Shown: one piece after another, positions 1 through 36,134 of the stretch
Numbering within the stretch: position 1 is the stretch's first letter
Layout of the letters: each line of letters opens with the position of its first letter
DNA from: Populus alba
Taxonomy: Eukaryota > Streptophyta > Magnoliopsida > Malpighiales > Salicaceae
Assembly: GCF_005239225.2 (NCBI RefSeq)
Contig: NC_133296.1
Span: forward strand, 16,247,046 to 16,311,045
Direction: 5' to 3'
Length of the DNA: 64,000 bases
Notes under the pieces: generated by a model
Databases searched by the model: none
The model's input: the letters and a program-made list of their open reading frames with translations, nothing else
What the model was told of the DNA's origin: nothing
Position numbers and translations under genes: made by a program

Positions 1-664
1 ACTCCCATTAAAAGAGTTTCCATTAGAAAAACTCTTATCTCCAACTCACTGGAGAGAATTCAACTCCCACTAAAAGAACTCTATATCTGAACTCATTAGA
101 GAAACTCAACTCTCATTAGATGAACTTACATGTCCAAACTCATTAGAGGAATTTAACTCCCATTGGAGGAACTTCCCACTCGAGGAACTTCCTTTGGAGG
201 AACTCTCATCTCCGAACTCATTTGGAGGAAACTCTCTTTATAGGAACTCAACTGCCATTAAAGGAACTCTCATCTCCAAAACTCATTAGAGAAACTCTCA
301 TCTCTGAACTCAATGGAGAAACTTTAACTCTCATTGAAGGAAACTTTCATTTTTAAAATTATTATAGGAAACTCCCTTTGTAGGAGCTTATAACTCCTAT
401 TGAAACAACTCTCATTATAGGAACTCAACTCCTATTGAAACAGCTCCCATTATAGGAACTCTCATTTTTGAACTCATTGGATAGACTTAACTCCCATTAT
501 AAAAACTCTCATACTCAAAATCATTGGAGGAACTCAATTCCTATTAGAGAAAATCATATCGTTGAACTCATTAGAAGAACTCAACTCTCATTAGAGCAAC
601 TCTCAATTGAGAAACTCCCTTTGGAAGAACTCTCATTAGAGAAACTCAATGGAGAAATGCATTA
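1..664. repeat. Degenerate minisatellite array, unit A
   Basis: The stretch is built from an imperfect motif of about 15 bp resembling GGAACTCTCATTAGA, arranged in a longer period of roughly 45 bp (AACTCAACTCCCATT, AACTCTCATCTC, GAACTCATTAGA). Closely related arrays lie at about 14430-14643 continuing at 23951-24575, and at 45546-46170. Each is followed by the same spacer beginning near AATGCATTAAGGGTGG. The 15-bp period keeps one frame partly open and gives Leu/Glu/Ser-rich pentapeptide repeats; I regard this as a by-product of the period and not as a gene. The left end is cut by the window edge. Confidence 0.85.
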
Positions 665-1192
665 AAGGTGGGACTCGATCGTACTTAGAAAATTTCTAAG
701 TTGCTAGAGGGAACCCATAGAAGGATAAGCCTATACTTAGAAAATTTCTAAATGGTTGAGAGGAACCCAATGAGGGTGGTGCTATTGCACTATAGAGATT
801 AAGTCAATTCCTTTAGAGAGTGGAGTATTGCACTAGAGAGACAATATTATCCAATCCCTTAGAGAGTGGAGTTATTGCACTAGAGAGAACATATTACCCA
901 ATCCTTAAAGAGTGGTGTTACTTATAATAGGAAGATATCATATTAATCCCTTGAAAAATAGTGTTATTGCAACGAAGAGAATCTCATATCAATCCCTTAA
1001 ATTAGTTTCCAGTAGGTGAAGCTTGTCAAGTATATAGAGCTCGTCTAGTAGGTGGAAACTCAATCTTTCGTGTATCATGAAAGCTCTCTAAGTCTCGCGT
1101 GACACCTTTTAACATGCACAAGTCGCCATAAATATTATGGGTGTTGCCTTGGGGCATAACCATGGTGTGTCGTCGTAGGTGTAGTCATGGTG
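665..1192. repeat. Spacer of the large unit, with short tandem repeats (unit A)
   Basis: This spacer recurs after the minisatellite at about 24576-25000 and 46170-46690. Two copies of ACTTAGAAAATTTCTAA flank a line reading as GAGGGAACCCATAGAAGGATAAGCC-type sequence. A roughly 50-bp unit (TCCCTTAGAGAGTGG, GTTATTGCACTAGA) then repeats about four times between 770 and 1000. No coding potential is visible. Units B and C continue past this point into sequence shared with each other, but unit A is interrupted at about 1193. Confidence 0.7.
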
Positions 1193-1788
1193 ATTAATTA
1201 TGTTTTTGGTCAAAGTTCATTTCAGTCCTCCCTCTTTCAATTGAACTCTAATTGACCTTAAACCTTTTTTATTTAATGCAATTAGGCCCCTAATTTTAAA
1301 TCAATTAACTTGGTAAAAATTAAATTTGGTCTCTTAAAATTCCAATATTCTCAATGAAGCCCAAATTAGGCTCCCAAACTTAATTTTCACCAATTAAGCC
1401 CAAATAAAATTTAATTTGACCCATTTAAAGTATAATTAAGTCCTTGCACTAATTAAATTCCTTCAATTGGATCTATATTAATTTTTATACATAATTAAAA
1501 TTGATTTGGCCCATGATTAAATCAAATTGGCCTATTAAAAATTTAATTATGTCATTAGACTTAATTTTTATGCAAATTCGTCCAATAATCATTTAATTTG
1601 ACCTTGATTTTGTATTTTTTTTTTTTGGGAAAATAAAGTACAATTAGGCCTTGAATTTCCTTCAAAATTGCCCAGTTTGATTCCCCGATTTGCTTTTTCC
1701 ATGTTGCCAGCCTTTATTTTATTTTTTTATTTTTTTTTTGAAAAAGAAATTTTGATTTTTAAAAGTAACCTAAAATTGGATTATGACA
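1193..1788 (-). mobile_element. Truncated LTR fragment, Tat/Ogre-like
   Basis: AT-rich sequence with repeated AATTAAGTCC/AATTAGGCCC phrases. The right end (GGATTATGACA at 1778-1788) resembles the GGGTTATAACA end of the Tat-like LTRs at 16875 and 23950. It replaces about 1 kb that is present at this place in units B (about 25000-26035) and C, so insertion plus deletion is likely. No left terminus or target-site duplication is visible. The orientation is inferred from the LTR end. Confidence 0.5.
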
Positions 1789-4700
1789 TGATACATGATC
1801 AGCTTTAAAAATGCATGGACCATCAACATACTGGTCAAGAAAATGGGAGAAGTTCGGATCTGGCTTACATGGATGCATGAGGACCAGCAAGATACACGGG
1901 AACAACGTTTTCCAGGACAAATATCATTATCACCGTCCGCCACGCTATCTGATTAATTTGTGGCTGTGGAACTTCAGCTCGTATTTCAAATTGCCACATA
2001 CCTAGATATCATCTCATCATTAATCACATGACTGTGCATCAGCATGCGTGCATTTTTAAACGTCAAAACTGGTGAAAAATTGATCAAACAAAATAGATTT
2101 TCATTTTATCCACAAAAAAAGGAGAAGACTTCGGTTTTGATTATATATATTGCTATATATAGTTTTATAAATAAGATAGCAAAATTTAAAAGAAATGCTT
2201 GCATCATTTAAAGAAACACGTCGTGTGTGTATGTTCATATATAGTACTATGAACAAATTAAAACTTCCATTTGCGTTTTATTTTAGGTCAAATTTCTTAA
2301 AATTTAGCTGGCTAGAGAATAATGACAACCAAGACACTTAATAATATATCATATTATAAAAGAATAATGTAAAAATTAAGAGAAGTTTTAGAGTTAATTT
2401 TAGAAATAATTATCAATAATTACTTTATGATTATATATTAGGGATAGACATAAAGAGGAGAGACCAACGTGAGAGAAAATTAAAAATAATTTTTGAGTTA
2501 GATGAAAATATATTTTATCAATCTTGTTTAGGATCAAATGTAATTTTTTTTTATCTTTGTAATTATCTATCACGTTGAATAACTAGTTACTCTTAAAGTA
2601 TTCAAAAACCCAATTATTTAAACATGTTAAATAACTACTTTAATTCAATAACTTAAATTATTAGATAAAATTTCAAAAATAATTTTATATCACTTTCTAA
2701 TATATATATAATTCTTTCAAGTAAAAACTATTTTAATACAAAATTGTTACTTGCTATATTGTGCTTAATTTTCATAGATATTATCTTCTGTTTTTTTTCT
2801 TTTATATAGATATAAATAGATTATAGTTGCATGATGCAATTTATATATAAAAAAAATCAGTCATCTAAAGATAAATAATAAAAAAAAAACACAATATTTA
2901 AAAATAAAATAATATTTAAATATTTCCATGCTCATATGTATTTGACTTTAGGAAAAGATTTCTATTATATTTTAGCTTTTAAAAAAATATTAAAAACTCT
3001 TTTAGTTAATTTATTGAAATATCATTTTTTTTAATTATTTATATTTTTATAATATTTAAAGAGATTTATTTATTTATTTAATATAAACCAAAGAAAGAAT
3101 TTATTTGGATGATATTTTTATAAAAATAAAGAATATTGTTTCCTGGTATGAAAAAAAAAAAAAAAAAAAAACCCTCTAAGAATAAAATAAAAAACATAGG
3201 GGTAAATATTTTTATTCTTAGTTATTTTTTTTTCCGGAGAAATATTAGCTTTCATTTTAAGTATTTAATAGAATTTTAAAATTCCTTTACAATTTATATA
3301 TTCATATAGTTTTTAAATTTATTTTGTTATGTATAAATAGTATATATATGTGTTTCTTAATTAAAAAAAAAAAAAACATGATATATCAATAAAAATATTA
3401 AATGATTGTTGGACTTTTTAAACCCAGTTGGTCCACCAAAACCCGACCATCAATTTTTAGGTAATACGGGTCGGTCATCTGCCACTGTTTCGTGTGTAGC
3501 CTAAAGGGAGTTAGCATGATGAATGTCATTAATGTTTGTGGCTCTTGCAAATCCTTACGCTTGCCTCCACAAGGATACTGAACCGGAGTACGAGGAATGT
3601 GTGTGTGCTGCAAAACAATCATCAATGGAGATTAGCGTAACAATAGCATTGTAATAGCTAGGACTCTGGCAGCCTTTTTTCAATCAAAAAATGAGAATTC
3701 AAAATCATGTTCTTCATTTGTGAATTTTGTGAGAAATGATATTGTGGGCTTGCATGCATTGCATGCATCCAAGCTCACCCCCTTGCAAGGTGCTACAAAA
3801 CAAACCTTCTGGACTTAAAATGGCAGACAAAATTGAAATTATTCCGAAAATTAAGTGTTGAATTTCAATCAAAAATTAATTAACAAGTAAAAATATATGG
3901 TAAATTACAACAGCGAGTAGGACAGTTTGAGATTATGAATGGGATAAATATATTTGTAGATCTCCATCGAATCCAAAAAAAATAATAGAGGGAAAAATAT
4001 TATCTCAAAATTTACATATTGTCGGATGATATTTATTTCAATCATCTCCATGTGTTGTGTCTGCAACCTGTTAGAGCATATATCTCTAAAGAAATAATTA
4101 ATCTATATGAGTGCTTCTCATATCCTGTTTTGGTAATTACATTCGAGTAGACTGATGGAAATGAGTGTTTGCATAAAACACGTGTCAATTAAATGAAGTT
4201 CTTGATTTGATCATTGCAATCTGCAATCCCTTTAAATTCATCAACATTGATAATGTTCGAGGCATGTTTCATTAGGAAAACATAGGCTTTTAAGCCATTG
4301 GCAAGAATCAATAATTATGCATTCTTGTCTAAGGTGGAGTTGTCTTAGGGCTTTGTGACCTATGAACCAACATAAACAAACTTCATATTTTTACGGTGAT
4401 AAAAAAAAAAAAAAAAGTTATATAGATTATATATGCACAAGATTAAGGTTATCATTGAAGAAGATTGGTTTTCCAATTAAAAAACTCTCAATAAAATACT
4501 TCGTTTTATCCAATTGTGTGTCAAACCAAAACCTAGAAAATTTCTACTTATCAAATTAAAAATCAAATATAATGTCACCATATATTATAATTACCATGTC
4601 ATACAATTCTTTACTTGAAAGAAGTGTTTATGCAACTCTGATACTATTTGATAGGAATTCGTAAAAATTATCGGATATTTGTGAGAGAGTATATGGGAAT

Positions 4701-5100
4701 TTTACTTAGATTTTTAAAAAGAAAAATTATTAATTAAAAAAAATATGATTATAATGCTAACATTACTTAATAAAAATTTAATGCTTGTGTGAACGTAACC
4801 TAAAAATTTAAATAAAATCATATAAAATTTAAATATGTTTTTTTATTTCTCTCATTTTACCATATTTATCTCGAGTTGTGTATTGGATGATCCTAAGAGA
4901 ATTTTCAAAACGAGGGAGATTAAACCTCCTCGTTGTATAAATGTAACATCAATAGAAGCAATAGATAATGACATGTAGATGGCATAGTTTGATCAGGACT
5001 CTCCCTTTTCAAAGAACAAGTAGAGAACAAAACATTATAGATTAATAGCACATTTATACTGTGTGGGGGCAATCTGGTGTTTATCACGACTCTCCCTTTT
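1789..5100. repeat. CYP79-cluster intergenic block, unit A
   Basis: This AT-rich block begins TGATACATGATCAGC and is shared with units B (about 26036-28706) and C (about 47630-50850). Long stretches can be matched by eye, including ACACGTCGTGTGTGT, GGATAGACATAAAGAGGAGAG and TTTCCATGCTCATATGTATTTG. It carries the 3' tail of a lost CYP79 gene near 3540-3630 and ends in the promoter of CYP79 copy 1. Compared with units B and C, unit A has many single-base additions. No gene is present in 1789-3530 or 3640-5170. Confidence 0.8.
3541..3640 (+). pseudogene. CYP79 3'-end remnant, unit A
   Basis: GCTCTTGCAA...CGCTTGCCTCCACA and GGATACTGAA match the last codons and stop region of the CYP79 genes at 7012 and 34945, followed by the same 3' untranslated phrase (GAATGTGTGTG, TGCTGCAAAA, ATCAATGGAG). 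Only about 14 codons survive; the rest of the gene is gone. Unit C keeps a longer version (50487-50567), and unit B only the final GATACTGA plus untranslated sequence. An ancestral extra CYP79 gene therefore stood here before the unit was duplicated. Confidence 0.7.
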
Positions 5101-5178
5101 GAAAATCTTTTGTATATTAAAGCCACACAAGGAACACCATGCATGACAAGAACATTAGTGAGATCGAGTTGTTTGATC

Positions 5179-7012
5179 ATGGAATATCTTGCTGCAACTT
5201 CCTTCACAACCCTATTAAGCTCCCCAGCTTCACTTCTTGTCTTGCAATCATACTGTTTTTACTTCAATCCAATCCCATAAGAATGTCAAGAAACACCCAT
5301 TGCCTCTCCGGTCCAAAACCGATGGGCCTATTGTTGGATGCCTCCACTACCAATGCTCCGAAACAAGCCAGTTGTATCGATGGAATACACAATCTCATGA
5401 AAGAAATGAACACTGAAATAGCTTGTATCCGTTTTAGGAAATGTTCATGTGATTCCTGTCATTTTTGTCCTGATATTGCTTGTGAATTCTTAAAAGCACA
5501 AGATAATACCTTTGCATCTAGACCTAATACCATGACCACAGATCTCATCTCGAGAGGTTACTTAACAACAGTTGTCTCTCCCTCTGGAGACCAATTGAAT
5601 AAAATGAAGAAAGTTCTTATGACTCATGTACTTTCTCCAAAAAAACATCAGTGGCTTTATAGCAAAAGAGTTGAAGAAGCTGATCACCTAGTTCATTACG
5701 TGTATAACCAGTGCAAGAAGTCTGTGCATCAAGGTGGCATTGTGAATTTGAGAACTGCTTCCCAGCACTATTGTGCAAATGTCACTAGGAAGATGCTGTT
5801 CAATAAGAGGTTTTTTGGGAAGGGAATGGAAGATGGTGGACCTGGTTTTGAGGAAGAGGAGTATGTGGATGCCCTTTTCAGCAGCCTCAATCATATATAT
5901 GCATTTTGCATCTCGGATTTCTTGCCATCTTTGATAGGGCTTGACTTAGATGGGCATAAGAAGGTGGCGATGGAGAATCATAGGATCGTCAATAAATACC
6001 ATGATCCCATAATCCATGAGAGGGTTCAACAATGGAAGGATGGTGCAAAGAAGGATACGGAGGACTTGCTTGATATTTTAATTACCCTGAAAGATCCTAA
6101 TGGCAATCCCCTGTTGTCAAAAGATGAGATAAAAGCTCAAATTACAGTAAGTTTTATATGCATTTACATTTTGAATTCCACATGGAAACACATATCTATG
6201 TCTTTAATGTTAATTAATTATACCAGTGATGAGCTAGTTATAGCTTAACTGGCACTCGTGTCCCTTCCTTTGAAAGTCTCAAGTTTGCATCTCTTTCCTT
6301 AAAAAAAAAACAAATACTGTAATAATCAAGTTTCACTACTGTATATCATAGTAATGATTTTCAAATATGATGACACTTGCAGGAAATAATGGTTGCAGCA
6401 GTGGACAATCCATCAAATGCTTGTGAATGGGCATTCGCAGAGATGCTAAACCAACCTGAGATACTTGAAAAGGCTACTGAAGAACTGGATAGAGTGGTTG
6501 GAAAGGAGAGACTTGTCCAAGAATCAGACTTTGCGCATCTCAATTACGTGAAGGCATGTGCTAGAGAAGCATTCAGGCTTCACCCTGTCGCACCATTTAA
6601 CGTTCCTCATGTGTCGGCCACCGATACAACAGTTGCCAACTACTTCATCCCGAAAGGTTCCTATGTTCTGCTTAGCCGTCTAGGACTGGGCAGAAACCCT
6701 AAAGTATGGGATGAGCCGCTCAAGTTCAAGCCAGAGCGCCACCTCAATGAAATGGAGAAGGTGGTGCTGACTGAGAATAATCTGCGATTCATTTCGTTTT
6801 CCACCGGAAAACGTGGGTGCATAGGCGTGACACTTGGGACTTCAATGACTACCATGCTATTTGCTAGACTTCTTCAAGCGTTTACTTGGAGTTTACCACC
6901 TCGCCAATCCAGCATCGACCTTACCATTGCAGAAGACAGCATGGCTCTTGCAAAACAACTGTTTGCACTTGCAAAACCACGCTTGCCTCCACAACTGTAT
7001 CCCGGATACTGA
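5179..7012 (+). pseudogene. CYP79: CYP79 cytochrome P450, copy 1, frame-disrupted
   Basis: Near-identical partner of the intact CYP79 gene at 33126-34945. CYP79 enzymes are ER-anchored P450s that N-hydroxylate amino acids twice to give aldoximes. Exon 1 would be 5179-6146 and exon 2 6383-7012, with GT-AG borders identical to copy 2. Exon 2 and the last ~650 bases of exon 1 are fully open and carry the NPSNA I-helix motif, EAFR, PERH and the heme loop [10 protein letters not shown]. The first ~300 bases contain about twelve single-base insertions and one deletion relative to copy 2 (between about 5240 and 5470), with few substitutions, so the start and the catalytic half are out of frame. The TATA region is also altered (TATATTAAAG for TATATAAAG). 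It is either a young pseudogene or an intact gene hidden by sequencing insertions. Trp-to-Leu in QLNKMKK is one of few coding substitutions. Confidence 0.85.
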
Positions 7013-7223
7013 AGCGAGTACAAGGACCGTGTATGCTGCAAAATATTATCAATATACGGTGTGCCAGAACATTAGCAGTTAATGTAATAAACTCTGGCAA
7101 CTTTTATATTGTTGAGAAAATAAACATAAAGGATTTGTGTTTAGAATTCTTATTTGACTAGTTAATTAAAAATTTTAATGGATTGCGATAGTTTGAGCTT
7201 AATTATAGCCCCCTGTGAAAATA

Positions 7224-14648: not shown

Positions 14649-16875
14649 TGTCGCACCTGACATCGCGGCAGCCCTAAAAATAATTTCTCTATTATGGAAA
14701 AAGAACAGATTCTGGCATCCGGTTCTTTTAGAAAAAATGTCTCGTTTGAGGAGTCGCCACCTAGTATTATGGTCACTAGGAACCCTAACTGGTCAACAGA
14801 GATTCTATGGTTCGGGATTGGTTACGTAAAAGGGAAGATATTATCACCCCTTAAACGTTCTGCCTAAGGCAAACTGCATTGCTGGTTTTGTCTTAAATTG
14901 CTAAATATTTATTAGTTATGCTGTGATGATTTGTTTAAATATTCCTGACTCTGGCGCCAGTGAATATTCGAGCTCGAATAATTCCAACTCTGGCGTTCGT
15001 AAAAATTCGTAGCTACGAAAAAATTAGATTAATGTTTTTTATTCCCTACTCTAGCACTAGTGAATAAATAAAAATAAATTTATTTTTTTACGCATGCACA
15101 TATTTTTTTATTTTTTAGCTAAATAAAATAAAAATACAACGAATAAAAATAATATAAATTTTAAATTGGTATTTTTTATTCCTGACTCTGGCGTCAGTGA
15201 ATAAACCAAATAAATTTACATTATTTTTATTCATGCATACACATTTTTTATTTATTTTTATTTTTTTATCTTTCTGTTTTTTTTTATTTTTTTAATTTTT
15301 TTTTATTATTTTTTTTTTTGGGGCTGGACCCAGCAAGCCTAGCCGGGTCAAGCCTTGACCCGGCTGGCCATTATTTATGTTTTTACCTACAGGAACATGT
15401 AATTAAAATGCAAGGAAGGAAAACGCTACTTACCTGGCGCTGGCAAAACCGAAGGCAGCAGTGACACTGGTTCTGGTCACGGTTCGTCGTCCATTTTTCT
15501 GTGGTTCTTGGTCTCTTCCTCGATTATTTTCAATTCTTCCTCTGTTTCTGTTTCCGTCTACTCCTCTGGTTCTTGCTTTCTTTATTTCCTTCTTCGTCTG
15601 TGTGCTTGTCGTTATTTTCTTCCTCCTTGCCTGGGCTCTCTGTTTTTTTCTTTGTTAGCTATCAGCCTTCTACGTCTCAGCCTCTGCTTCATTCTTCTCC
15701 GTGTGTTTCTTGATGTCTTCGGTTTTGCGCCTCTTATCCCGGTTCTTTGAGATGAAGGGATGAAGACGATAGGGATGCTGGCTGGATTTATTTTGACTGA
15801 TTTCTGGGTTGTTCCTTTTATGTGCAGGAACGAAGACAATAGCAAGGCTAATTCATGCCCTGTGTTGCTGAGGCCTTTTCTGGATTTTGCTTGAGTCCTT
15901 GTTCCCGTTTTTGTTCCCCTGTTTATGCTGGGTTTTTCCTCTGTTATTTGCTCTCTCCTAGGTATTTTTTCTGTGATTTCTTCCTCCCTTCTCTGGGTTT
16001 ATTCTCCGTTCAATTTCCCCCGTTGGCTGCGATTCCCTCTCCTTTTATAAGGCCAAAATCAGTGGTAACGGCCGGCCTCCTCAACGCCTTGTAACCGACC
16101 TTTTAAGCGCCTTCAATGATGAAGCTTAAACGTTGGCTGGAAACCGATGAAACGGAGGAAGAAGACAGTGAACAGTTTTGTCCAAGAAACGGCAACGTTT
16201 TCCCATTCAACTGCTATTTATGATTTGGTCCTTGAAGTTTGGAAAGTTTTGTAATTAAGCCCCTGGTTGAATTGTAATTGAACCCCTTCATTTCGGCGCC
16301 TTTTACAAGTTAGTCCTCGGACTTTAATCTGCTGCAATCGTGCCCCCAATTAACCTCTAAACTTTGATATTCTTCAATTAAGTCCTGATTTCATTAATTT
16401 AATTAAATCCAAAGTCCAATTAAGTCACAAAACTTATCAATTCTCCAATTAAACCTTTAATTGGATTAATTAAATCAATTCCAAGCTTAATTAAGTCTCA
16501 AAACTTATCAATTCTCCAATTAAATCCTTGATTGGATGAATTAAATTAATTTCAAGCTTAATTAAGTCTCAAAACTTATCAATTCTCCAATTAAACCCTT
16601 AATTGGATTAATTAAATTAATTCCAAGCTTAATTAAGTCTAAAAATTTATCAATTCTCTAATTAAACCCTTAATTGGATTAAATAAATTAATTCCAAGCT
16701 TAATTAGATTAATTTCAAAGTTTAATTAAACCTCAAAACTTCCATTCATATTGCCCTTAATTCAAAATTTAATTCATTCTTCATTTATTTCATCATCATT
16801 ATTTTTTCATCATTTTCAGTAAATAAAATAATAATAATAATTAGAATAAAAATGGTCAAAAATTGGGTTATAACA
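14649..16875 (-). repeat. 3' LTR of the Tat-like element (left copy)
   Basis: On the plus strand it starts TGTCGCACCTGACATCGCGG and ends GGGTTATAACA. It pairs with 21830-23950. Differences visible by eye are few substitutions, about 25 bp missing near 15330 (present at about 22508-22535 in the other LTR), and one to two more copies of a ~66-bp AT-rich tandem unit around 16430-16745. A short run of inward frames with Phe/Ser/Cys-rich translations at 15460-16090 exists in both LTRs but looks non-coding. Confidence 0.9.
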
Positions 16876-16892
16876 GTTGCCCCCTCTTTATA
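16876..16892 (-). other. Polypurine tract of the Tat-like element
   Basis: On the minus strand AAAGAGGGGGCAAC sits directly before the TGTTATAACCC start of the 3' LTR. A G-rich purine run at this place is the expected primer for plus-strand synthesis and fixes the element's orientation as minus. Confidence 0.8.
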
Positions 16893-17263
16893 ATATTTAC
16901 TATGCAAAGATATTGGAAAATTTCATTTTCTTTTATCTTTGTGTAGTAAATTTATAAAGAAAAGTACATAGAGAAAGAACCCCCCCTTTTTTTTCTCTTT
17001 TTTTCTCTTTTTTTTTTTTTTGAAAACTTAGAAAATAATAGATTGACACACGACCTTTACAGAGAGATGTAGAAATCAAGAAACAAGTCATTGGGAAGAC
17101 GATCCACCTTTTTTTTTTTTTTTTAAATGGATCAAATTGTTTTGGGCAACCTGCCCGATGATAAAAGAACGCGAAGAATTTCGCGAATGGTCTAATTGTT
17201 CCAAGCGACCTGCCCGATGATTGAAAAAATACGAGGATGATTTTTTTTTTATATATATAGGAT

Positions 17264-17510
17264 GGTCACATTGTAATGGGTTACCAGCCCAGATGGTATA
17301 TTGTAATGGGTTACCAACCCAGTTGGTAAATTGTAATGGGTTACCAACCCAGATGGTCACATTGTAATGGGTTACCTGCCTAGTTGGTCACATTGTAATG
17401 GGTTACCAACCCAGATGGTCACATTGTAATGGGTTATCTGCCCAGTTGGTATATTGTAATGGGTTACCAACCCAGTTGGCCACATTGTAATGGGTTACCG
17501 GCCCAATAAA
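17264..17510. repeat. 31-bp tandem repeat, eight copies
   Basis: The unit CATTGTAATGGGTTACC followed by AACCCAGATGGT recurs eight times with small changes (TTACCAACCC, TTACCTGCCT, TTATCTGCCC, TTACCGGCCC). The array lies near the 3' LTR of the Tat-like element. The minus-strand frame through it encodes a GNPLQ-type repeat, which I take as incidental. Confidence 0.9.
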
Positions 17511-17579
17511 AAAAATACGAGAATTTTTCAAAAATGGTCTAATTCACATAGATTTGAAGGAGGTGGAAAAAATGACATG

Positions 17580-17935
17580 ATAGGGCTCGAAGGCGCATTA
17601 TTCCAAAAGATGAAAGCTCGAAGGAAATGAGGGCTCGGAGGTGCGCTCGAAAGGGAATGAGGGCTCGAAAACGCACTCAAAAGGAGGTAGGATAGGAAAT
17701 GCACTACCTTTGATGGTCGAGGGCTCGAAGGCGCGCTCGAAAAGAAATGAGGTGAGGGCTCGAAGGCGCACTCAAAAGGAGGTAAGATAGGAAATGCACT
17801 ACCTTTGATGGTCGAGGGCTCGAAGGCGCGCTCGAATGAAGATAAGACGAGGGCTCGAAGGTGTGCTTGAATTGAGGTAGGATATGAAATGCACTACCTA
17901 TGATGGTCGATGGCGCACTCGAAAAAGGTGGAAAA
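17580..17935. repeat. GAGGGCTCGAAGGCGCGCTCGAA tandem-like array
   Basis: Phrases GAGGGCTCGAAGGCGC and GCTCGAAAAGAAATGAG alternate with GGTAGGATAGGAAATGCACTACC in a higher-order repeat of about 100 bp, three to four units long. It belongs to the internal 3' part of the Tat-like element. No coding sense is apparent. The following stretch to 20252 also holds no gene. Confidence 0.8.
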
Positions 17936-20252
17936 ACACAGAGATTTTTCAGGTGGCCTAATTCTCATGGGCGGCCTGCCCAGGATGAAAAATTCTCAAA
18001 AAATAAAAAATTTTCAAAAGCAAATTCAATCTTGGCCATTTCAAGTTGGCCTTCCACTTGATGGATTTCGTTGGAATTTTCTCATATGAAATTTGCAAAA
18101 CTCATTGTTCAATGTCTCGAAGTTTAGATGATATGCATGCATCTTTACCTGTTTTGAAATATAGGCCCCCATTTCTTCTTAGTCTTCTTGTTGCTTGACT
18201 GATGAGGACTTGCTACCTCTGATTCGGGTCATCTTTGTCACTTGGCTTCTAGCCCACTCGAGTTAGCCCATGTAAATCTATTTCCAGATTTGTTTGCACA
18301 ACTTAGCCTTTATGGTGCCCATTGTGACCCACTTGCTTGCTAAAGAATTTTTTTGACTCGTCAAATAATTTGAGAGGATCATTCATTACTCCTCGTTTCA
18401 CTACTAGAAACATTCGGTGTCACTTGCTAAAAGTATCAAACTGTATTTCATAAACCAAAATGCCCCCTTGTCTTGTTGTAGGAAATGTTCCATCTCTTTT
18501 TTCTAGAATATTTCCTTCTAAGCACAATGTTGCCACCTTGTATTGGTCATTGCCCCTAAGGGTGCTCTGTCAGCGACTTAGACAAATTATGGTTTTAAGA
18601 AGCCATTCTTTCATTTCTCTCCTTTTCAGTTTGGTGAAGGAATATGGGTTTAGAATGAATCTTGAAATCTTGATCTTGCATTTTGAAAACAAAAATTATT
18701 TTGATGTGAATCTAAAATAATTTGCTTTTGAAATCTTACAACTCCTTGGCTATTTTCTTTCTTGGGAAGAAAAAAAAAAGGTTATTTGCTCTTGTTTGGC
18801 AATGAGATCTTCAATGAAAATACGTCATGAGATGACCTTTTTTCAAAGTGAAGGGCTCGAGAAAAAAAAGCTCAAGGTTTTGTTTGAGAAAAATTTGTCT
18901 CTTTTTGAACACTCATTTTTATCAGCATGAATAATAATGAATAGCTTATTCTTGAGGTCATGAATCTTATGAAAAATATATTCTTTGCATTTTGATAGCA
19001 TTGTTTATTGTTCTAGGTTGCTTGTTTGCTTGATTAGAAAGGACTTCTACAGGTACGTAACGTAGGCTGTGGTTTTTGGCTATGAAAGAAATGGATTCAT
19101 AAGGCTCAAAGAGTGTTTCAGGGTTTCAAAGACTGAAGATCACGATCAATAGTTTGACTTTTGGCGTCATTCATATTTTCTTTTGCCGCTCTTCTTTGAT
19201 TTGCCCCTCTCTTTTTTTTTCATTGCTTTGCTAAAGCATACTCACTTTATCTTGGTTATCACTTTTTCTTGTGATTTGGGCATGCCCCCTAGCATTTGAG
19301 TTTCTTGGGCTCTTTTGCCTTTTGGCTTTCTCACGGCTTTATCATCTTTCTTGATCATTGAAATTTCACTTGCCCCCAATGTGGGGTGTGATCCTAGTCG
19401 GGATATATTTTATGAAAGAAAAATTATTCAGGCTCAAAAAGGGATCACAAGGGATATACTTATTTCAGAACGTGAAAGGAATAACAAAGATGGTCTTTCC
19501 TCATTTCAAGCGCAAGCAACTATGATCAATAAACTTTGACCTCATCTAGTGTGATGGTTTAGTCTTTGCAAAGATGCATTTCATGAGTTATGAGCAACAA
19601 GTTCACTACATACCATTATTCATACACTTAAAAACACATGTTTCAAGAGTCATGGGGTAAGGGTGTTTATTCATTTCTTTTTTCTTTCTTCTTTTTAGAG
19701 TTTGGTCACTTTTATGAAGGAGTTGCTTGATTCAATTGTCATTCTATAAGTAGAATGTCAAAAATATCATTTTTGAATAAACATCAAATTATTTTTTGAA
19801 ATCAAAATGCCAGATCAATTTTTCAAAACTCCAATAGGGAAACTGATTTGTGTTAAAAGAGATGAATTGCGTCTATGAGATCGCACAAGGCTTCAAAGAT
19901 GTGTTTGTGAATCTTTATAAGAAAACTCTCTCAGAAAAAAAATGAATAATGATAATCGTAAACATGATTGAATGACAAACTCATTATTTCATTGAAACTT
20001 TGGAAAATAAGTTCAACAAGAAAGAACTTATGACAACATCTCGGGCTATGAATACTGGCATGATAACATATAAAGGGGCTAAACATTTAGCGATCATTGA
20101 TTGGAATTTCTGGAATATTTCAATCATTCATTCTCCTCGACAAGGGCATCTTTTCAACAGTCAATTGAAATCAAATGTAGATCATTCTCAACCTAATATC
20201 ACCATAGCTTTATCTTCAAAATAATTGGTTGCTGGGAGTCGGTGTGAAGCAA

Positions 20253-21284
20253 TTAGCTATAGGAACGATAAGTGTCTTGGCAATCACCTTCAGTGAAATC
20301 ATTCTTCTTAGTCGGGTTAGCAATCTTACCTAACCTAATGGCTTGTTCAATCCTCTCAGCTATAATAACCAAGTCAGTGAAATGTCGTGCAGAGCTTCTA
20401 ACCAAGTATTCAAAGTACGGAGCTTTAAATGTATTGGAAAATAAACTGATCATCTCTTTTTCCGACATGGGAGGATTAACTTGTGCAGCTACCTCGCTCC
20501 ATCTCCGGGCATATTCTCTTATGGACTCCTTGTTGTTCTTCTCCATAGCTTGCAAACTTAACCGATCAGGGCCCACGTCTATATTGAACTTATATTGCCT
20601 CATGAAGGCATCAACTAAGTCCTTCCATTTTTTAACCTTGGTATTATCCAACCACATATACCAAGTGAGGGCAGCGTCACTCAAGCTGTCTTGAAAAAAA
20701 TGAATCAGTAGTTTCTCATCATCAACCACCTCAGCCATTTTGTTGCAATATGCTTTAAGATGAGTTATAGGGCATTGAGTTCCCGTATATTTGACAAATT
20801 CTGGCACTCTAAACTTTTTGGGAATGACAACGTTGGGCACCAAACACATATTGACAGCTTTCACCAGGTCACACAAATGGTTTCCCTCAACTGCCCTTAT
20901 CCTCTTCTCTAGGGTAGTCCATTTTTCCAAATCCTCTTCTTTCACCATCTTGCCCTTTTGAGATTCTTTCTCGGTGGAATCAGTGGTAGATGAAATTCTT
21001 GAAGAGTATGCTAGTTGGAAATGCATAGCTTGTTGAAATTCAGATGATTCCCTATTTGCCCCCAGATTATGTGGATCAAAATGAGTTACATGCATATCTC
21101 CAGGCTGAGCTATAAGTGTTGCTTTTCCGGATTTATCTCTCAAGGCCTGCTCGAGTAGACTAGTAAGCCTTGCGACTTCTTCCTTAAGATTGTCCACCTC
21201 TTTTTGATGTTGGGCTTCCAACTGGGCTCTTTCTTCGTTTTCCATTTGTCTTTTTCTCGAACGAGTGTTATAAATGAGTTTCAA
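20253..21284 (-). CDS. Retrotransposon Gag protein of the Tat-like element
   Basis: The frame is open for 343 residues. Residues about 15-50 are charged and heptad-like (NEERAQLEAQ, LKEEVARLTSLLEQ), suggesting a coiled coil. Residues about 160-320 show the plant retrotransposon Gag pattern: VPEFVKYTGTQCPITHLKAY, FFQDSLSDAALTWYMWL, then WKDLVDAFMRQYKFN and SIREYARRWSEVAAQV. Gag would form the particle that packages element RNA in the cytoplasm. No CCHC zinc knuckle lies before the stop, and no protease or polymerase follows, so the protein is shorter than Gag-Pro of complete Ogre/Tat elements. It lies about 550 bp downstream of the primer site in the element's own orientation. An in-frame frame this long suggests recent activity or selection, though function in trans is unproven. 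Confidence 0.85.
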   Translation of the reverse strand: MKLIYNTRSRKRQMENEERAQLEAQHQKEVDNLKEEVARLTSLLEQALRDKSGKATLIAQPGDMHVTHFDPHNLGANRESSEFQQAMHFQLAYSSRISSTTDSTEKESQKGKMVKEEDLEKWTTLEKRIRAVEGNHLCDLVKAVNMCLVPNVVIPKKFRVPEFVKYTGTQCPITHLKAYCNKMAEVVDDEKLLIHFFQDSLSDAALTWYMWLDNTKVKKWKDLVDAFMRQYKFNIDVGPDRLSLQAMEKNNKESIREYARRWSEVAAQVNPPMSEKEMISLFSNTFKAPYFEYLVRSSARHFTDLVIIAERIEQAIRLGKIANPTKKNDFTEGDCQDTYRSYS

Positions 21285-21807
21285 TGGGGGACCTATATTT
21301 CAGCCTGTTAAATGTAAATCATGCAATTATGCAAAAATGCTAAAGCAATAATAAAAAAATAAAAAAATGCGTATAAAATGCGAACTTGCCCTTCACGGGA
21401 TGACAACCTAATTGGAAGATCCTAATTATTGAGTGCATCAAGGGGTTGGTCATTATCTAGTCTCAAAGGGTCTTTCGCATGCTCAATGATCGTCCATGAA
21501 AGGTCGATATGAGGCTTACAAGTAGTGTGAAGATAGAGGCCCTGAGTAAAATCAGTTTGGCATATCAACCACTTCCAAGTAAACAATCAAGCGAGAGTTG
21601 GATGGTTTCACGAGTCTTACCCAGGCTAAAGTCATTGGGGTACCGTTACTTTCCCACTTATCCTAGGTTGTCAAGTGTGTGCTCTCAAAGTGATGCATGA
21701 CAACATAAATAAGGATGCGTGTTAAAGTAGTAAATACAGGAAAAATAAACAAATAAACACAAAAAAAAAATAGCAATAATAAGACAAAAGACAAAGCTTA
21801 ATCCTAA

Positions 21808-21826
21808 GTCCCCAGTGGAGTCGCTA
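21808..21826 (-). other. tRNA primer-binding site of the Tat-like element
   Basis: Minus strand reads TAGCGACTCCACTGGGGAC, three bases inside the 5' LTR end. The pattern TGGCGACTCCACTGGGGA is, from memory, the tRNA-Arg-type site used by Ogre/Tat elements; here the second G of TGG is A, which weakens the match to the CCA end of the tRNA. Confidence 0.75.
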
Positions 21827-21829
21827 TTC

Positions 21830-23950
21830 TGTCGCACCTGACATCGCGGCGGCCCTAAAAATAATTTCTCTATTATGGAAAAAGAACAGATTCTGGCATC
21901 CGGTTCTTTTAGAAAAAATGTCTCGTTTGAGGAGTCGCCACCTAGTATTATGGTCACTAGGAACCCTAACTGGTCAACAGAGATTCTATGGTTCGGGATT
22001 GGTTACGTAAAAGGGAAGATATTATCACCCCTTAAACGTTCTGCCTAAGGCAAACTGCATTGCTGGTTTTGTCTTAAATTGCTAAATATTTATTAGTTAT
22101 GCTATGATGATTTGTTTAAATATTCCTGACTCTGGCGCCAGTGAATATTCGAGCTCGAATAATTCCAACTCTGGCGTTGGTAAAAATTCATAGCTACGAA
22201 AAAATTAGATTAATGTTTTTTATTCCCTACTCTAGCGCTAGTGAATAAATAAAAATAAATTTATTTTTTACGCATGCACATATTTTTTTATTTTTTAGCT
22301 AAATAAAATAAAAATACAACGAATAAAAATAATATAAATTTAAATTGGTATTTTTATTCCTGACTCTGGCGTCAGTGAATAAACCAATAAATTTACATTA
22401 TTTTTATTCATGCATACACATTTTTTATTTATTTTTATTTTTTTATCTTTCTGTTTTTTTTTAATTTTTTAATTTTTTTTTTTATTATTTTTTTTTTGGG
22501 GCTGGGCCCAGCTCAGCCCACATGGCTGGGCTGGACCCAGCAAGCCTAGCCGGGTCAAGCCTTGACCCGGCTGGCCATTATTTATGTTTTTACCTACAGG
22601 AACATGTAATTAAAATGCAAGGAAGGAAAACGCTACTTACCTGGCGCTGGCAAAACCGAAGGCAGCAGTGACACTGGTTCTGGTCACGGTTCGTCGTCCA
22701 TTTTTCTGTGGTTCTTGGTCTCTTCCTCGATTATTTTCAATTCTTCCTCTGTTTCTGTTTCCGTCTACTCCTCTGGTTCTTGCTTTCTTTATTTCCTTCT
22801 TCGTCTGCGTGCTTGTCGTTATTTTCTTCCTCCTTGTCTGGGCTCTCTGTTTTTTTCTTTGTTAGCTATCAGCCTTCTACGTCTCAGCCTCTGCTTCGTT
22901 CTTCTCTGTGTGTTTCTTGTTGTCTTCGGTTTTGCGCCTCTTATCCCGGTTCTTTGAGATGAAGGGATGAAGACGATAGGGATGCTGGCTGGATTTATTT
23001 TGACTGATTTCTGGGTTGTTCCTTTTATGTGCAGGAACGAAGACAATAGCAAGGCTAATTCATGTCCCTGTGTTGCTGAGGCCTTTTCTGGATTTTGCTT
23101 GAGTCCTTGTTCCCGTTTTTGTTCCCCTGTTTATGCTGGGTTTTTCCTCTGTTATTTGCTCTCTCCTAGGTATTTTTTCTGTGATTTCTTCCTCCCTTCT
23201 CTGGGTTTATTCTCCGTTCAATTCCCCCCCGTTGGCTGCGATTCCCTCTCCTTTTATAAGGCCAAAATCAGTGGTAACGGCCGGCCTCCTCAACGCCTTG
23301 TAACCGACCTTTTAAGCGCCTTCAATGATGAAGCTTAAACGTTGGCTGGAAACCGATGAAACGGAGGAAGAAGACAGTGAACAGTTTTGTCCAAGAAACG
23401 GCAACGTTTTCCCATTCAACTGCTATTTATGATTTGGTCCTTGAAGTTTGGAAAGTTTTGTAATTAAGCCCCTGGTTGAATTGTAATTGAACCCCTTCAT
23501 TTCGGCGCCTTTTACAAGTTAGTCCTCGGACTTTAATCTGCTGCAATCGTGCCCCCAATTAACCTCTAAACTTTGATATTCTTCAATTAAGTCCCTGATT
23601 TCATTAATTTAATTAAATCCAAAGTCCAATTAAGTCACAAAACTTATCAATTCTCCAATTAAACCTTTAATTGGATTAATTAAATCAATTCCAAGCTTAA
23701 TTAAGTCTCAAAACTTATCAATTCCCCAATTAAATCCTTGATTGGATAAATTAAATTAATTTCAAGCTTAATTAAGTCTCAAAACTTATCAATTCTCCAA
23801 TTAAACCTCAAAACTTCCATTCATATTGCCCTTAATCCAAAATTTAATTCATTCTTCATTTATTTCATCATCATTATTTTTTCATCATTTTCAGTAAATA
23901 AAATAATAATAATAATTAGAATAAAAATGGTCAAAAATTGGGTTATAACA
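21830..23950 (-). repeat. 5' LTR of the Tat-like element (right copy)
   Basis: Pairs with 14649-16875 over its whole length. It has only about three copies of the ~66-bp AT-rich tandem unit (about 23625-23815), explaining most of the 106-bp length difference, and it retains GCTCAGCCCACATGGCTGGG, missing from the other LTR. Confidence 0.9.
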
Positions 23951-26035: not shown

Positions 26036-28706
26036 TACATGATCAGCTTTAAAAGATGCATGGACCATCAACATCTGGTCAAGAAATGGAGAAGTGGGAT
26101 CTGGCTGACATGGATACACGTGGACCAGCAAGGATACACGAGGAACAACGTTTTCCAGGACAAAAAACATTATCACCGTCCGCCACCGCTATCTGATTAA
26201 TTTGTGGCTGTGGAACTTCAGCTCGTATTTCAAAATGTGCACAAAACCTAGATATCATCTCATCCATTAATCACATGACTGTGCATGAGAATGCGTGCAT
26301 TTTAACGTCAAAGCTGGTGAAAAATTGATCAAACAAATGATCGTTAAACACGGAAACACAAAAAAGAAAAACAATCATAAAAATAGATTTTTATTTTATC
26401 CACAGAAAAAAGGAGAAGACTTCGATTTTGATTATATATATTGCTATATATAGTTTATAAATAAGATAGCAAAATTTAAAAGAAATGCTTGCATCATTTA
26501 AAGAAACACGTCGTGTGTGTGTACATATATAGTACTATGAACAAATTAAACTTCCATTTGCATTTTATTTTAGGTCAAATTTCTTAAAATTTAGCTGGCT
26601 AGAGAAATAATGACAACCAAGACACTTAATAATATATCATATTATAAAAAGAATAATTTAAAAATTAAGAGAAGTTTTAGAGTGTTTTAGAAATAATTAT
26701 CAATAATTACTTTATATGATATATAGGGATAGACATAAAGAGGAGAGACCAACATGAGAGAAAATTAAAAAATAATTTTTGAGTTTAGATGAAAATATAT
26801 TTTATCAATCTTGTTAGGATCAAATGTAATTTTCTTTTTTATCTTTGTAATTATCTATCACGTTGAATAACTAGTTACTCTTAAAGTATTCAAAAACCAA
26901 TTATTTAAACATGTTAAATAACTACTTTAATTGAAAAACTTAAATTATTAGATAAAATTTCAAAAATAATTTTATATCACTTTCTAATATATATAATTCT
27001 TTCAAGTAAAAACTATTTTAATACAAAATTGTTACTTGCTATATTGTTTAATTTTCATAGATATTATCTTCTGTTTTTTTTTCTTTTATATTAGATATAA
27101 ATAGATTATAGTTGCATGATGCATTTATATATAAAAAAATCAGTCATCTAAGATAATAATAAAAAAAAACACATATTTAAAAATAAAATAATATTTAAAT
27201 ATTTCCATGCTCATATGTATTTGACTTTTAGGAGAAATATTTCCATTATATTTTAGCTTTTAAAAAAATATTAACTCTTTTAATTAATTTATTTAAATAT
27301 CATTTATTTTTTTAATTATTTTATATTTTTATAGTATTTAAAATAGATTTTTTTATTTATTTAATATAAATAGAATTTATTTGGATGATATTTTTATAAA
27401 AATAAAGAATATTTGTTCCTGGTATGAAAAAAAAGAACCTCTAAGATAAAGTAAAAAACACATGGGTAAATATTTTTATTCTTAGTTTATTTTTTTGTTT
27501 TTAGGAAAAATATTAGCTTTTCATTTAAGTATTAAATAGAATTAAAAATTCCTTTACAATTTATATATTCATATAGCTTTTAAATTTATTTTTGTTATGT
27601 ATAAATAGTATCTATGTGTTTCTTAACTTCAAAAAAAAAAAACATGATATAAAATGATTAGATGATGTTGGACTTTTTAAATCAGTTGGTCCACCAAAAC
27701 CGACCATCAATTTTTAGGAATATGGGTCTGTCATCTGCCTTGAGATCTTTCGCCGCGGCATGTGGAATTTCTTTAGGTAACAAAAATCTTACGTGTATGT
27801 GAAGAATTCAAGAACCGTAATTAACAACAATCTCTAAATCTTTTGGTTGACTTGACGGTCAGGTTGGATACTGAACCGAGTACTAGGAATGTGTGTGCTG
27901 CAAAAAATCATCAATGGAGATTAGCGTAACAATAGCATTGTAATAGCTAGCATCTGGCAGCCTTTTTCAATCAAATAATGAGAATTCAAATCATGTTCTT
28001 CATTTGTGAATTTGTGAGAAATGATATTGTGGGCTTGCATGCATCCAAGCTCAACCCCTTGCAAGGTGTACAAAACAAATCTTTTGGACTTAAAATGGCA
28101 GAAAAAATTGAAATTATTCCGAATTGAGTGTTGGATTTCAAGCAAAAATAAATTGACAAGTAAGGTTATGAAGAAGGAAATTGATTTTTTAATAAAAAAA
28201 CTTTTATAAAATACTTTGCTTTATCTAATTGTAGATCAAATCAAAATCAGAAAATTTCACCAGATTAAAAATCAAAATTCAAACATATTATCAGAATACT
28301 TCAATACCATGTCATACAATTCTTTACCTGAAAGAAGTGTTTGTGCCACTCTAATACTATTTGATAGGAATTCATAAAATTATCAGATATCTGTGAGAGA
28401 GTACATCAGAATTTTACTTAGATTTTTTAAAAGAAATTATTAATAAAAACTTTTATTATAATCCTCCCATTATTTAATAAAAAATTTTAATACTTGTGTG
28501 AACGTAACTAAATTTAAATGAACCATATAAATTTTAATATGTGTTATTTCTTATTTTATTATATTTATCTCGAGTTGTGTATTGCATGATCCTAAGAGAA
28601 TTTTCAAAACGAGGGATATTAAACCTCCTCGTAGTATAAACGTAACTTCAATAGAAGCAATAGATAAGGACATGTAGATGGCATAGTTGATCAGGACTCT
28701 CCCTTC
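26036..28706. repeat. CYP79-cluster intergenic block, unit B, with orphan CYP79 promoter
   Basis: Corresponds to 1789-5000 of unit A and 47630-50850 of unit C. It contains the end of a lost CYP79 (GGATACTGAACCGAG at about 27865, then GAATGTGTGTGCTGC). Its last ~400 bp (28300-28706) match the CYP79 promoter at 32555-32960 nearly base for base, up to GATCAGGACTCTCCC. There the match stops and a CACTA fragment begins, so this promoter has lost its gene. No coding sequence is visible in between. Confidence 0.8.
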
Positions 28707-32554: not shown

Positions 32555-33100
32555 TGATACCATGCATGTCATACAATTCTTCGCTTGAAAGAAGTATTTG
32601 TGCAACTCTGTTACTATTTTATAGAAATTCATAAAATTATCGAATATATTTGAGAGACTACATGGAAATTTCACTTAGATTTTCAATTTTTTTATTAATA
32701 AAAAAATATGATTATAATCCTCCCATTACATAATACAATTTTTTAAAGCTTGTGTGAACGTAACTAAATTTAAATAAATCATATAAATTTTAATATGTGT
32801 TATTTCTTATTTTACCATATTTATCTCGAGTTGTGTATTGCATAATCCTAAGAGAATTTTCAAAACGAGGGATATTAAACCTCCTCGTAGTATAAACGTA
32901 ACTTCAATAGAAGCAATAGATAAGGACATGTAGATGGCATAGTTGATCAGGACTCTCCCTTTTCAAAGACAAGTAGAGAACAAAACATTATAGATTAATA
33001 ACACATTTATAGTGTGTGGGGGCAATCTGGTGTTTATCATGACCCTCCCTTTTGAAAATCTTTTGTTATATAAAGCCACACAAGGAACACCATGCATGTC
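32555..33100 (+). promoter_or_regulatory. CYP79 copy 2 promoter with TATA box
   Basis: TATATAAAG at 33067-33075 lies about 55 bases before the chosen ATG (33126) and predicts a transcription start near 33098. That excludes the in-frame upstream ATG at 33096 and leaves a ~25-base leader. The region from TGTCATACAATTCTT onward is also present upstream of copy 1 (about 4595-5100) and as the orphan copy at 28310-28706, so cis elements were duplicated with the gene. Confidence 0.65.
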
Positions 33101-33125
33101 AAGAACATTAGTAGATCCATCGATC

Positions 33126-34945
33126 ATGGAATATCTTGCTGCAACTTCCTTCACAACCCTATCAAGCTCCCCAGCTTCACTTCTTGTCTTAGCAATCATA
33201 CTGTTTTACTTCATCCAATCCCATAAGAATGTCAAGAAACACCCATTGCCTCCCGGTCCAAAACCATGGCCTATTGTTGGATGCCTCCCTACCATGCTCC
33301 GAAACAAGCCAGTGTATCGATGGATACACAATCTCATGAAAGAAATGAACACTGAAATAGCTTGTATCCGTTTAGGAAATGTTCATGTGATTCCTGTCAT
33401 TTGTCCTGATATTGCTTGTGAATTCTTAAAAGCACAAGATAATACCTTTGCATCTAGACCTCATACCATGACCACAGATCTCATCTCGAGAGGGTACTTA
33501 ACAACAGCTTTATCTCCCTCTGGAGACCAATGGAATAAAATGAAGAAAGTTCTTATGACGCATGTACTTTCTCCAAAAAAACATCAGTGGCTTTATAGCA
33601 AAAGAGTTGAAGAAGCTGATCACCTTGTTCATTACGTGTATAACCAGTGCAAGAAGTCTGTGCATCAAGGTGGCATTGTGAATTTAAGAACTGCTGCCCA
33701 GCACTATTGTGCAAATGTCACTAGGAAGATGCTGTTCAATAAGAGGTTTTTTGGGAAGGGAATGAAAGATGGTGGACCTGGTTTTGAGGAAGAGGAGTAT
33801 GTGGATGCCCTTTTCAGTAGCCTCAATCATATATATGCATTTTGCATCTCGGATTTTTTGCCATCTTTGATAGGGCTTGACTTAGATGGGCATGAGAAGG
33901 TGGCGATGGAGAATCATAGGATCGTCAATAAATACCATGATCCCATAATCCATGAGAGGGTTCAACAATGGAAGGATGGTGCAAAGAAGGATACGGAGGA
34001 CTTGCTTGATATTTTAATTACCCTGAAAGATCCTAATGGCAATCCCCTGTTGTCAAAAGATGAGATAAAAGCTCAAATTACAGTAAGTTTTATATGCATT
34101 TAAATTTTGAATTCCACATGGAAACACATATTTATGTCTTTAATGTTAATTAATTAGACCAGTGATGAGCTAGTTATAGCTTAACTGGCACTCGTGTCCT
34201 TTCCTTTGAAAGTCTCAAGTTTGCATCTCTTTCCTTAAAAAAATATATACTGTAATAATCAAGTTTCACTACTGTATATCATAGTAATGATTTTCAAACA
34301 TGATGACACTTGCAGGAAATAATGGTTGCAGCAGTGGACAATCCATCAAATGCTTGTGAATGGGCATTCGCAGAGATGCTAAACCAACCTGAGATACTTG
34401 AAAAGGCTACAGAAGAACTGGATAGAGTGGTTGGAAAGGAGAGACTTGTCCAAGAATCAGACTTTGCGCATCTCAATTACGTGAAGGCATGTGCTAGAGA
34501 AGCATTCAGGCTTCACCCTGTCGCACCATTTAACGTTCCTCATGTGTCGGCCGCCGACACAACAGTTGCCAACTACTTCATCCCGAAAGGTTCCTATGTT
34601 CTGCTTAGCCGTCTAGGACTGGGCAGAAACCCTAAAGTGTGGGATGAGCCGCTCAAGTTCAAGCCAGAGCGCCACCTCAATGAAACGGAGAAGGTGGTGC
34701 TGACTGAGAATAATCTGCGATTCATTTCGTTTTCCACCGGAAAACGTGGGTGCATAGGCGTGACACTTGGGACTTCAATGACTACCATGCTATTTGCTAG
34801 ACTTCTTCAAGCGTTTACTTGGAGTTTACCACCTCGCCAATCCAGCATCGACCTTACCATTGCAGAAGACAGCATGGCTCTTGCAAAACCACTGTTTGCA
34901 CTTGCAAAACCACGCTTGCCTCCACACCTGTATCCCGGATACTGA
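33126..34945 (+). CDS. CYP79: CYP79 cytochrome P450, amino-acid N-hydroxylase (aldoxime-forming), copy 2
   Basis: Two exons, 33126-34082 and 34316-34945, split by a 233-bp GT-AG intron at codon 319/320, give 528 residues, the usual length. Residues 13-32 form the ER anchor; LPPGPKPWP (41-49) is the hinge. The oxygen-binding I-helix has NPSNA (328-332) in place of the general AGTDTT motif, a CYP79 signature. EAFR (381-384) is the K-helix ExxR, PERH is at 436-439, and [10 protein letters not shown] (458-467) is the heme loop with Cys465 as ligand. CYP79s turn an amino acid into its E/Z-aldoxime, feeding volatile aldoximes, nitriles or cyanogenic glucosides. Substrate cannot be read from sequence; the CYP79D group of poplar is the likely affiliation. 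AATAAA signals lie at about 35019 and 35051. A retroelement is inserted 150 bp beyond the stop. Confidence 0.95.
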
Positions 34946-35095
34946 AGCGAGTGCAAGGACTGTGTATGCTGCAAAATATTATCAATTGACGGTGTGCCAG
35001 AACATTAGCAATTAATGTAATAAACTCTGGCAACTTTTATATTGTTGAGAAAATAAACATACAGGATTTGTGTTTAGGATTCTTATTTGACTAGT

Positions 35096-36037
35096 TGATG
35101 TGCATCATGGGAATTATAATCCATCTCGTAAAGCTGAATCTAATGTGCCAGAGGATTCAGATGGTCCAATGACAAGAGCGAGAGCGAAACAACTACAACG
35201 GGCCTTGACGAATCAAATTGCAATGATTGAAGCTGCGTCGGAGTTAAAAATTAGCAATCAGTTTGAAATTGGTTCAAGGGTGCTTATTTGCCTACAGTTG
35301 GAACTTGGAGATGGGAAAAGCCCTTAATGGTTCTTTTCATGCTGGGCTACTTGTATTTGGATTGATAATGCAATTGAAGGAACTGATGTTGTTTACGGTC
35401 AGAACAGTAGATGGATTTGAACCCGAATTTGAAGTCATCCAATGCATGTGAAAAGAAGATTTATATAGGTAAAATTCAAGTTCAGAACGTGATCTTTCTA
35501 TATTGTCCAACCATGATTGCATTAGACTTTTGTGTCAAAAGTTATGGCTGTTTTAAATTTCATCTGCATATGTTTTAGAAATGTCAAAAAAAACGTCTGT
35601 TAGTTAAATTTGTCTACTTGCTTTATTAAAAGTCTAGTTTTTAGGCTTGACTTCTGTCATGTTGAATTCACCTAACTTTGGAGGGATGTTCCAAAGATAA
35701 ATATGTATCAGAATATGAAATAAACACTTTTGGCCAAGATTTGAAAACTTAATTCAGAGAATTAAGAGTTGTTCTTCCAAATTCATTTTGTGAAGAACCA
35801 TACCTGACTTATCACTCTTCAATCACAAAGAGTGTGGCGTCGAAATCCTAGATTGATCTTTGTGGCGTCCAGATCGACTTATCAAAGTATCATTCTAGTC
35901 TATCCTCCATCTTATTTACCTTAAATCACTACAATCCAGCCTAAATACCAAAAGCAAGACAACACAACCAGACCCATCCTTCATCCATTTTCGTTAGAAT
36001 CATTGTTGCCGATTTTCAAATCATTCACGGCACATCA
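35096..36037 (+). repeat. 5' LTR of the young Ty3/gypsy element
   Basis: 942 bp, TG...CA. Versus the 3' LTR it has CAA where the 3' copy has the TAA stop of the pol frame (35192 region), and one extra T in a run near 35525. Near identity marks a recent insertion. Confidence 0.95.
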
Positions 36038-36039
36038 TC

Positions 36040-36051
36040 TGGTATCAGAGC
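36040..36051 (+). other. tRNA-iMet-type primer-binding site
   Basis: TGGTATCAGAGC directly follows the left LTR after TC. This is the standard plant LTR-element primer site complementary to initiator methionine tRNA. Confidence 0.9.
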
Positions 36052-36134
36052 ATCAGTTGCGATCTAAGACAGGAGCCAAAAACAACAACAAGAAGAAGAA
36101 AGGTTTGCTGGAATTGAGGTTGACAGACTTAACT

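Follow-up and report, generated by a model that had tools for sequence, protein, structure and literature searches.

The dense single-base insertions at the start of the first of two copies of CYP79, a defence gene of the poplar family, in the stretch of Populus alba DNA analysed here (64,000 nucleotides, C13:16247046-16311045, hereafter the window) are very probably residual long-read sequencing error in the assembly and not a feature of the tree's DNA, as far as a comparison of sequences can tell. Since a near-identical copy on the same chromosome lacks these indels, the break in copy 1 is very probably an assembly error. The preliminary description of this locus had favoured an artefact over gene decay, and this preference is now strongly supported: the closest counterpart of copy 1 shares its rare substitutions and has none of the indels of the patch, and there is no excess of substitutions.

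CYP79 copies in the window and on the contig

The features of the two copies in the window are the following.
5179..5480, plus strand: the reported patch, in the first ~300 bases of exon 1 of CYP79 copy 1 (defined by pairwise alignment and anchor distances)
5465..6146, plus strand: clean remainder of copy 1 exon 1, without indels relative to copy 2
6147..6382, plus strand: intron of copy 1
6383..7012, plus strand: exon 2 of copy 1, open, containing the heme-binding loop
33126..34082, plus strand: exon 1 of copy 2, the intact reference
34316..34945, plus strand: exon 2 of copy 2, intact

The P450 profile (PF00067) is matched in both exons of both copies, and both copies contain the ten-residue heme-binding loop in the form FxxGxxxCxG given in PMC11586672. 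Copy 2 is an intact two-exon CYP79 that shares 96% identity, end to end, with the full-length protein P0007 and 91% with a Salix dunnii protein, its named nearest proteins being those of Populus and Salix. With its two open exons and intact heme loop it resembles the CYP79D enzymes of Salicaceae, the subfamily letter being taken from nearest matches only; the poplar enzymes CYP79D6 and CYP79D7 convert an amino acid to an aldoxime (PMC6196558). Five of the eight close relatives reach the protein start (P0005, P0007, the Salix proteins P0008 and P0014, and P0027 of Populus deltoides), while P0006, P0009 and P0017 begin later. All five carry a membrane anchor and a proline-rich hinge like those of copy 2, and these are absent from copy 1 as assembled. 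The window also contains remnants of further CYP79 units, namely a copy of the 5' flank at 28148-28705, which ends at 28705 before any exon, and a fragment of the 3' end of exon 2 at 50487-50564.

When a 601-base query over the patch was searched against the assembly (416 Mb, 96 contigs), 12 matches were obtained. Ten are on C13, seven of them full length and three partial, and the other two, on C4, are more distant. The full-length copies on C13 are the following.
D (16233341), copy 1 and copy 2
Minus strand: F (16590210), H (16605993), E (16620343) and G (16635828)

Three of these seven copies (copy 1, G and H) are broken, mostly by single-base indels, and four (copy 2, D, E and F) are open. 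G is broken by single-base insertions, although no more than 8 substitutions and 2 indels set it apart from the open copy D over 5481-7012. Thirteen indels between 5000 and 7100 are private to H (L017, C13 ~16604480-16607180), seven of them in exon 2; six are one-base deletions, all of C, six are one-base insertions and one is a 3-base insertion. Deletions of C only contrast with the insertion-dominated pattern of copy 1.

The indel patch at the start of copy 1

The patch was measured by pairwise alignment of window positions 4595-7166 (copy 1) with 32565-35099 (copy 2) and by anchor distances. A multiple alignment turns some of the patch indels into substitutions (11 substitutions and 9 indels relative to copy 2), and the counts given here are therefore those of the pairwise alignment and the anchors. 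Between 5179 and 5480, copy 1 differs from copy 2 by 11 insertion events that add 12 bases (ten of one base, one of two), one deletion of a single base and one substitution. The rest of the coding sequence (5481-6148 and 6383-7012) shows the reverse, 21 substitutions and no indel. These figures bear out what had been read from the letters by eye, i.e., about twelve additions and one deletion, next to no substitutions among them, and no indels in the remaining exon sequence. The alignment-free measure agrees: from anchor to anchor across the patch, copy 1 measures 287 bases, whereas copy 2, D, E and F all measure 276, G 277 and H 275. The five bases by which copies 1 and 2 differ at 5168, immediately left of the patch, were deleted in copy 2 and H, which share this deletion, and not inserted in copy 1.

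All 26 short (1-2 base) indels relative to copy 2 in 4595-7166 lie at or to the left of 5462, which is also the best single changepoint (P = 6e-13 under uniform placement). In six control repeat pairs from the same window, 39 short indels stand against 407 substitutions, and with this background the probability of at least 12 indels among 13 differences is 2e-12. One of the control pairs (20-1188 with 45562-46687; 23 indels to 164 substitutions) proved to lie inside the noisy block described below; the five pairs outside it have 16 short indels and 243 substitutions, giving a P of 4e-14 for the patch, so that its 12:1 is far outside the background with either control set. Neutral decay, in which substitutions outnumber indels in the decayed part, is not what the patch displays, with one substitution against 12 indels.

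The closest counterpart of copy 1

Among the six other full-length copies on C13, E is the one with the fewest differences from copy 1 over 5481-7012 (14 substitutions and 1 indel). The kinship is also seen in the columns of 5481-7100 in which two of the seven C13 copies carry one letter and five another: copy 1 and E form the pair at five of them (5526, 5558, 5596, 5690 and 5760), copy 1 and H at one, and copy 1 and any other copy at none. In the patch stretch E differs from copy 2 by 1 substitution and 0 indels and has none of the patch indels of copy 1, and its frame is open over both exon 1 (319 of 319 residues) and exon 2 (209 of 209 residues). Because E shares the rare letters of copy 1 and lacks the patch indels, these indels belong to the assembled copy 1 alone, and the substitutions common to the two copies are very probably genuine. 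E may be a paralogue or the other haplotype, and its intact frame is therefore no proof that copy 1 is intact.

A noisy block with a sharp right edge

Comparison with E shows that the excess of indels goes far beyond the exon.
1..5464, no strand, continuing to the left of the window: noisy block with an excess of short indels and a normal density of substitutions (comparison with E, 1978-2567 left out)

To the left of 5464, 4874 aligned bp contain 80 substitutions, 97 short insertions and 31 short deletions, and to the right of it 9175 aligned bp contain 143 substitutions, 10 short insertions and 12 short deletions (Fisher P = 3e-22; the counts against E are unpolarised). Substitutions occur at 16.4 per kb on the noisy side and 15.6 per kb on the clean side, while short insertions rise 18-fold, from 1.1 to 19.9 per kb, and deletions 5-fold. 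No short extra bases relative to E are found in the window between 5463 and 9536, and the intron of copy 1 has one 4-base difference from that of E. Outside the window, the adjoining 1.5 kb on the left (C13 16245545-16247045) show 25 short extra and 12 short missing stretches relative to E, and the 2.7 kb at C13 16240000-16242683 show 6 and 7. As two stretches (16242684-16245544 and window 1978-2567) stayed outside the alignment with E, the left edge of the block is only bracketed; the block runs from C13 ~16245545, or further left, to 16252509, that is, over ~7 kb or more. The noise ignores gene boundaries and spans kilobases of flank.

Three-way alignments inside the window assign the excess to the unit of copy 1. 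In the polarised flanks the ratio of short indels to substitutions is 42:62 in unit A (that of copy 1), 11:52 in unit B and 9:139 in unit C at the middle of three gap penalties; the counts are similar at all three, with P from 0.0005 to 0.006 for the excess of A over B. In the far-left repeat 20-1188 the noise is weak in the three-way alignment and clear against E, and here the comparison with E is the one we trust. Extra bases of the same style had been noticed earlier at two places in the flank of unit A. One of these, 3420-3640, is indeed rich in insertions, whereas at ~1800-1900 short indels abound but deletions about equal insertions. The indels of the patch are there as first described, but they are not limited to near-identical sequence and belong instead to a multi-kilobase block that ends at a probable seam.

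The cause proposed in the preliminary description was that short reads cannot be placed uniquely in repeats, so that polishing fails there; the reads of copy 1 would in that case have been captured by the clean, near-identical copies. This is a version of the explanation by residual error that differs in the cause, and its probability overlaps with that of the explanation as a whole; we regard it as a possible, though not the favoured, account. The patch does lie within the longest substitution-free stretch relative to copy 2 (5217-5525, 309 bases), and in simulated bacterial genomes the residual errors of most short-read polishers have been reported to fall mainly in repeats (PMC8812927). On the other hand, the clean side is equally duplicated, with substitution-free stretches of 208, 203, 141 and 111 bases, flanks that have 1.6% substitutions relative to E are also noisy, and the noise stops at a single point. 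Given the repeats on the clean side, the kilobase length of the block and its sharp edge, a seam between poorly and well corrected sequence fits better and is the cause that we prefer. The noisy block would go back to one or a few PacBio-type reads with poor correction, and well corrected sequence would have been attached to it at ~5464, the patch being the right-hand end of the block. In the tree, copy 1 would then most likely have a normal 5' exon, as E has. The PacBio-type platform, the seam and the real state of copy 1 are what we infer from these patterns.

The spectrum of the indels

According to Table 1 of PMC6588853, real PacBio reads from E. coli carry 9.42% insertions, 3.86% deletions and 1.27% substitutions; the paper also gives 14.5% errors of all kinds for raw reads and a share of 15-20% for insertions longer than one base. 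The 97:31 ratio of insertions to deletions in the noisy block does not differ from the tabulated 9.42:3.86 (P = 0.24), and 19 of the 97 short insertions are of two bases. In 80 of these 97 the first inserted base equals its neighbour. Of the 11 insertions in the patch, eight repeat the neighbouring base, where random bases would give 43% (P = 0.045), and four of the eight extend a single base and not a run, where replication slippage is not expected.

The block thus looks like residual errors of the PacBio CLR type, with insertions in excess of deletions and both far in excess of extra substitutions, with mostly single-base events, ~20% two-base events among the short insertions and a sharp edge in quality. 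It departs from raw reads in two ways. The density of errors, 128 short indels in 4874 bp or 2.6%, is about one fifth of theirs, and therefore partial correction must be assumed. The ratio of insertions to deletions is uneven along the block, 14:15 in the flank at 1786-3393 and 23:2 in three later parts (Fisher P = 0.0009), so that the errors do not stem from one uniform process. Partial correction with locally varying depth would yield both the uneven ratio and the lowered density.

Alternatively, the insertions might be real and recent, produced by error-prone repair or copying confined to a tract. The tract-like extent of the block, its sharp edge and its unchanged substitution density would suit such an event. 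However, we know of no process that makes ~20 short insertions per kb over many kilobases without extra substitutions, the spectrum fits that of a sequencer, and G and H on the same chromosome are also broken by mostly single-base indels. We therefore consider a real tract to be extremely improbable. Gene decay and gene conversion were set aside too, as substitutions are not raised in the noisy block.

A variant of the real-tract reading arises from a frame that passes through the patch.
5139..6248, plus strand: ORF open across the patch, with a P450 profile match that begins only at residue 111

Because this frame is open, we weighed whether an insertion-prone copied or repaired tract, by way of the shifted frame, could have given copy 1 a new functional N-terminus. 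Random indels of equal number leave the 5139-6248 frame open in ~4% of simulations, a mild point against residual error, and the P450 match starts well inside the frame, as given above. The frame is probably open by chance; the new N-terminus was rejected, and we assign this reading a next to negligible probability. Residual long-read error remains the preferred explanation of the patch.

Coding changes and the likely activity of copy 1

Of 430 codons after the patch, 11 differ nonsynonymously and 9 synonymously between copies 1 and 2. Judged by hand against close relatives, with the row at the patch edge dropped, seven residue changes fall on the side of copy 1 (129, 136, 191, 214, 257, 399 and 511) and one on that of copy 2 (443, shared with F and H), and three are ambiguous (113, 128 and 523). 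Three of the seven (129, 136 and 191) are shared with E alone and that at 214 with D, E and G, whereas none of the other six full-length C13 copies has those at 257, 399 and 511. At residue 511, Pro is found in 133 of the 137 relatives that bear a letter there.

The change at residue 136 deserves separate treatment.
5595..5597, plus strand: codon of residue 136 (copy-2 numbering), TTG (Leu) in copy 1 and E and TGG (Trp) in the other five C13 copies

This residue is the Trp of the WxxxR motif, which contacts a heme propionate (PMC11586672), and its replacement by Leu sets copy 1 and E apart from the CYP79D enzymes of Salicaceae. That E (L013) has Leu136 as well makes it very unlikely that this change belongs to the noise. 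The corresponding column of 169 relatives has Trp in 163, Leu in two (P0044 and P0045), Tyr in two (P0105 and P0115), His in one (P0061) and a gap in one; with five of 169 relatives bearing another residue, loss of this Trp recurs among CYP79-like proteins. At the Arg position of the motif, copy 2 has Lys, as do 104 of the 169 relatives. The enzyme of copy 1 or E may be impaired by the loss of the WxxxR Trp.

These changes also speak for copy 1 being a true pseudogene, the 5' exon of which decayed by many small insertions. Like a duplicated pseudogene, it has a frame that is broken as assembled; it has accumulated seven residue changes to one in copy 2, three of them private, and it has lost Trp136 and departs from a near-invariant Pro at residue 511. 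Unlike in a duplicated pseudogene, there is no substitution excess here, either in the ~300 bases of the patch, with their single substitution, or in the whole block, and E, the closest counterpart, is open and has none of the disabling changes. Moreover, the remaining coding sequence is free of indels, and the excess of indels spans kilobases of flank past the gene boundaries. We judge decay to be very unlikely. With residual error as the preferred explanation of the patch, copy 1 is probably full length in the tree, while the Trp136-to-Leu change that it has in common with E leaves its activity doubtful. The earlier expectation of two intact CYP79 genes in the window is thus borne out only by half: copy 1 likely has a full-length frame, but the replacement of Trp136 leaves its function in doubt.

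A mirrored CYP79 cluster

The CYP79 cluster is present twice on C13 in opposite orientation, at 16230006-16300149 and at 16639768-16575675, the former including window positions 1-53104. The blocks are collinear and 94-99% identical, most of them 96-98%, and among the matches of at least 600 bases that were listed, none continues the collinearity past either end of the cluster in the sequence compared. Either the cluster is truly duplicated in inverse orientation, or a second haplotype was left uncollapsed and set next to the first. Over the 1527 columns that align window positions 51585-53104 with the mirror copy, there are 8 gap openings but only a single mismatch. This is again a stretch of indels with next to no substitutions, and it gives the impression that a single sequence entered the assembly two times, errors included. 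Two regions have no counterpart in the mirror copy among matches of at least 600 bases, 14649-23950, which contains a retrotransposon gag frame, and 35097-40101, which contains a Ty3-type element with near-identical terminal repeats (35097-35600 and 39162-39665). Both look like insertions on one side only.

Concluding remarks

The apparent pseudogene gives way to a quality warning for this locus: counts of functional CYP79 genes and pseudogene calls here should not be made from this sequence alone. The substitution of Leu for the Trp of WxxxR, on the other hand, is a real and testable point on CYP79 activity.
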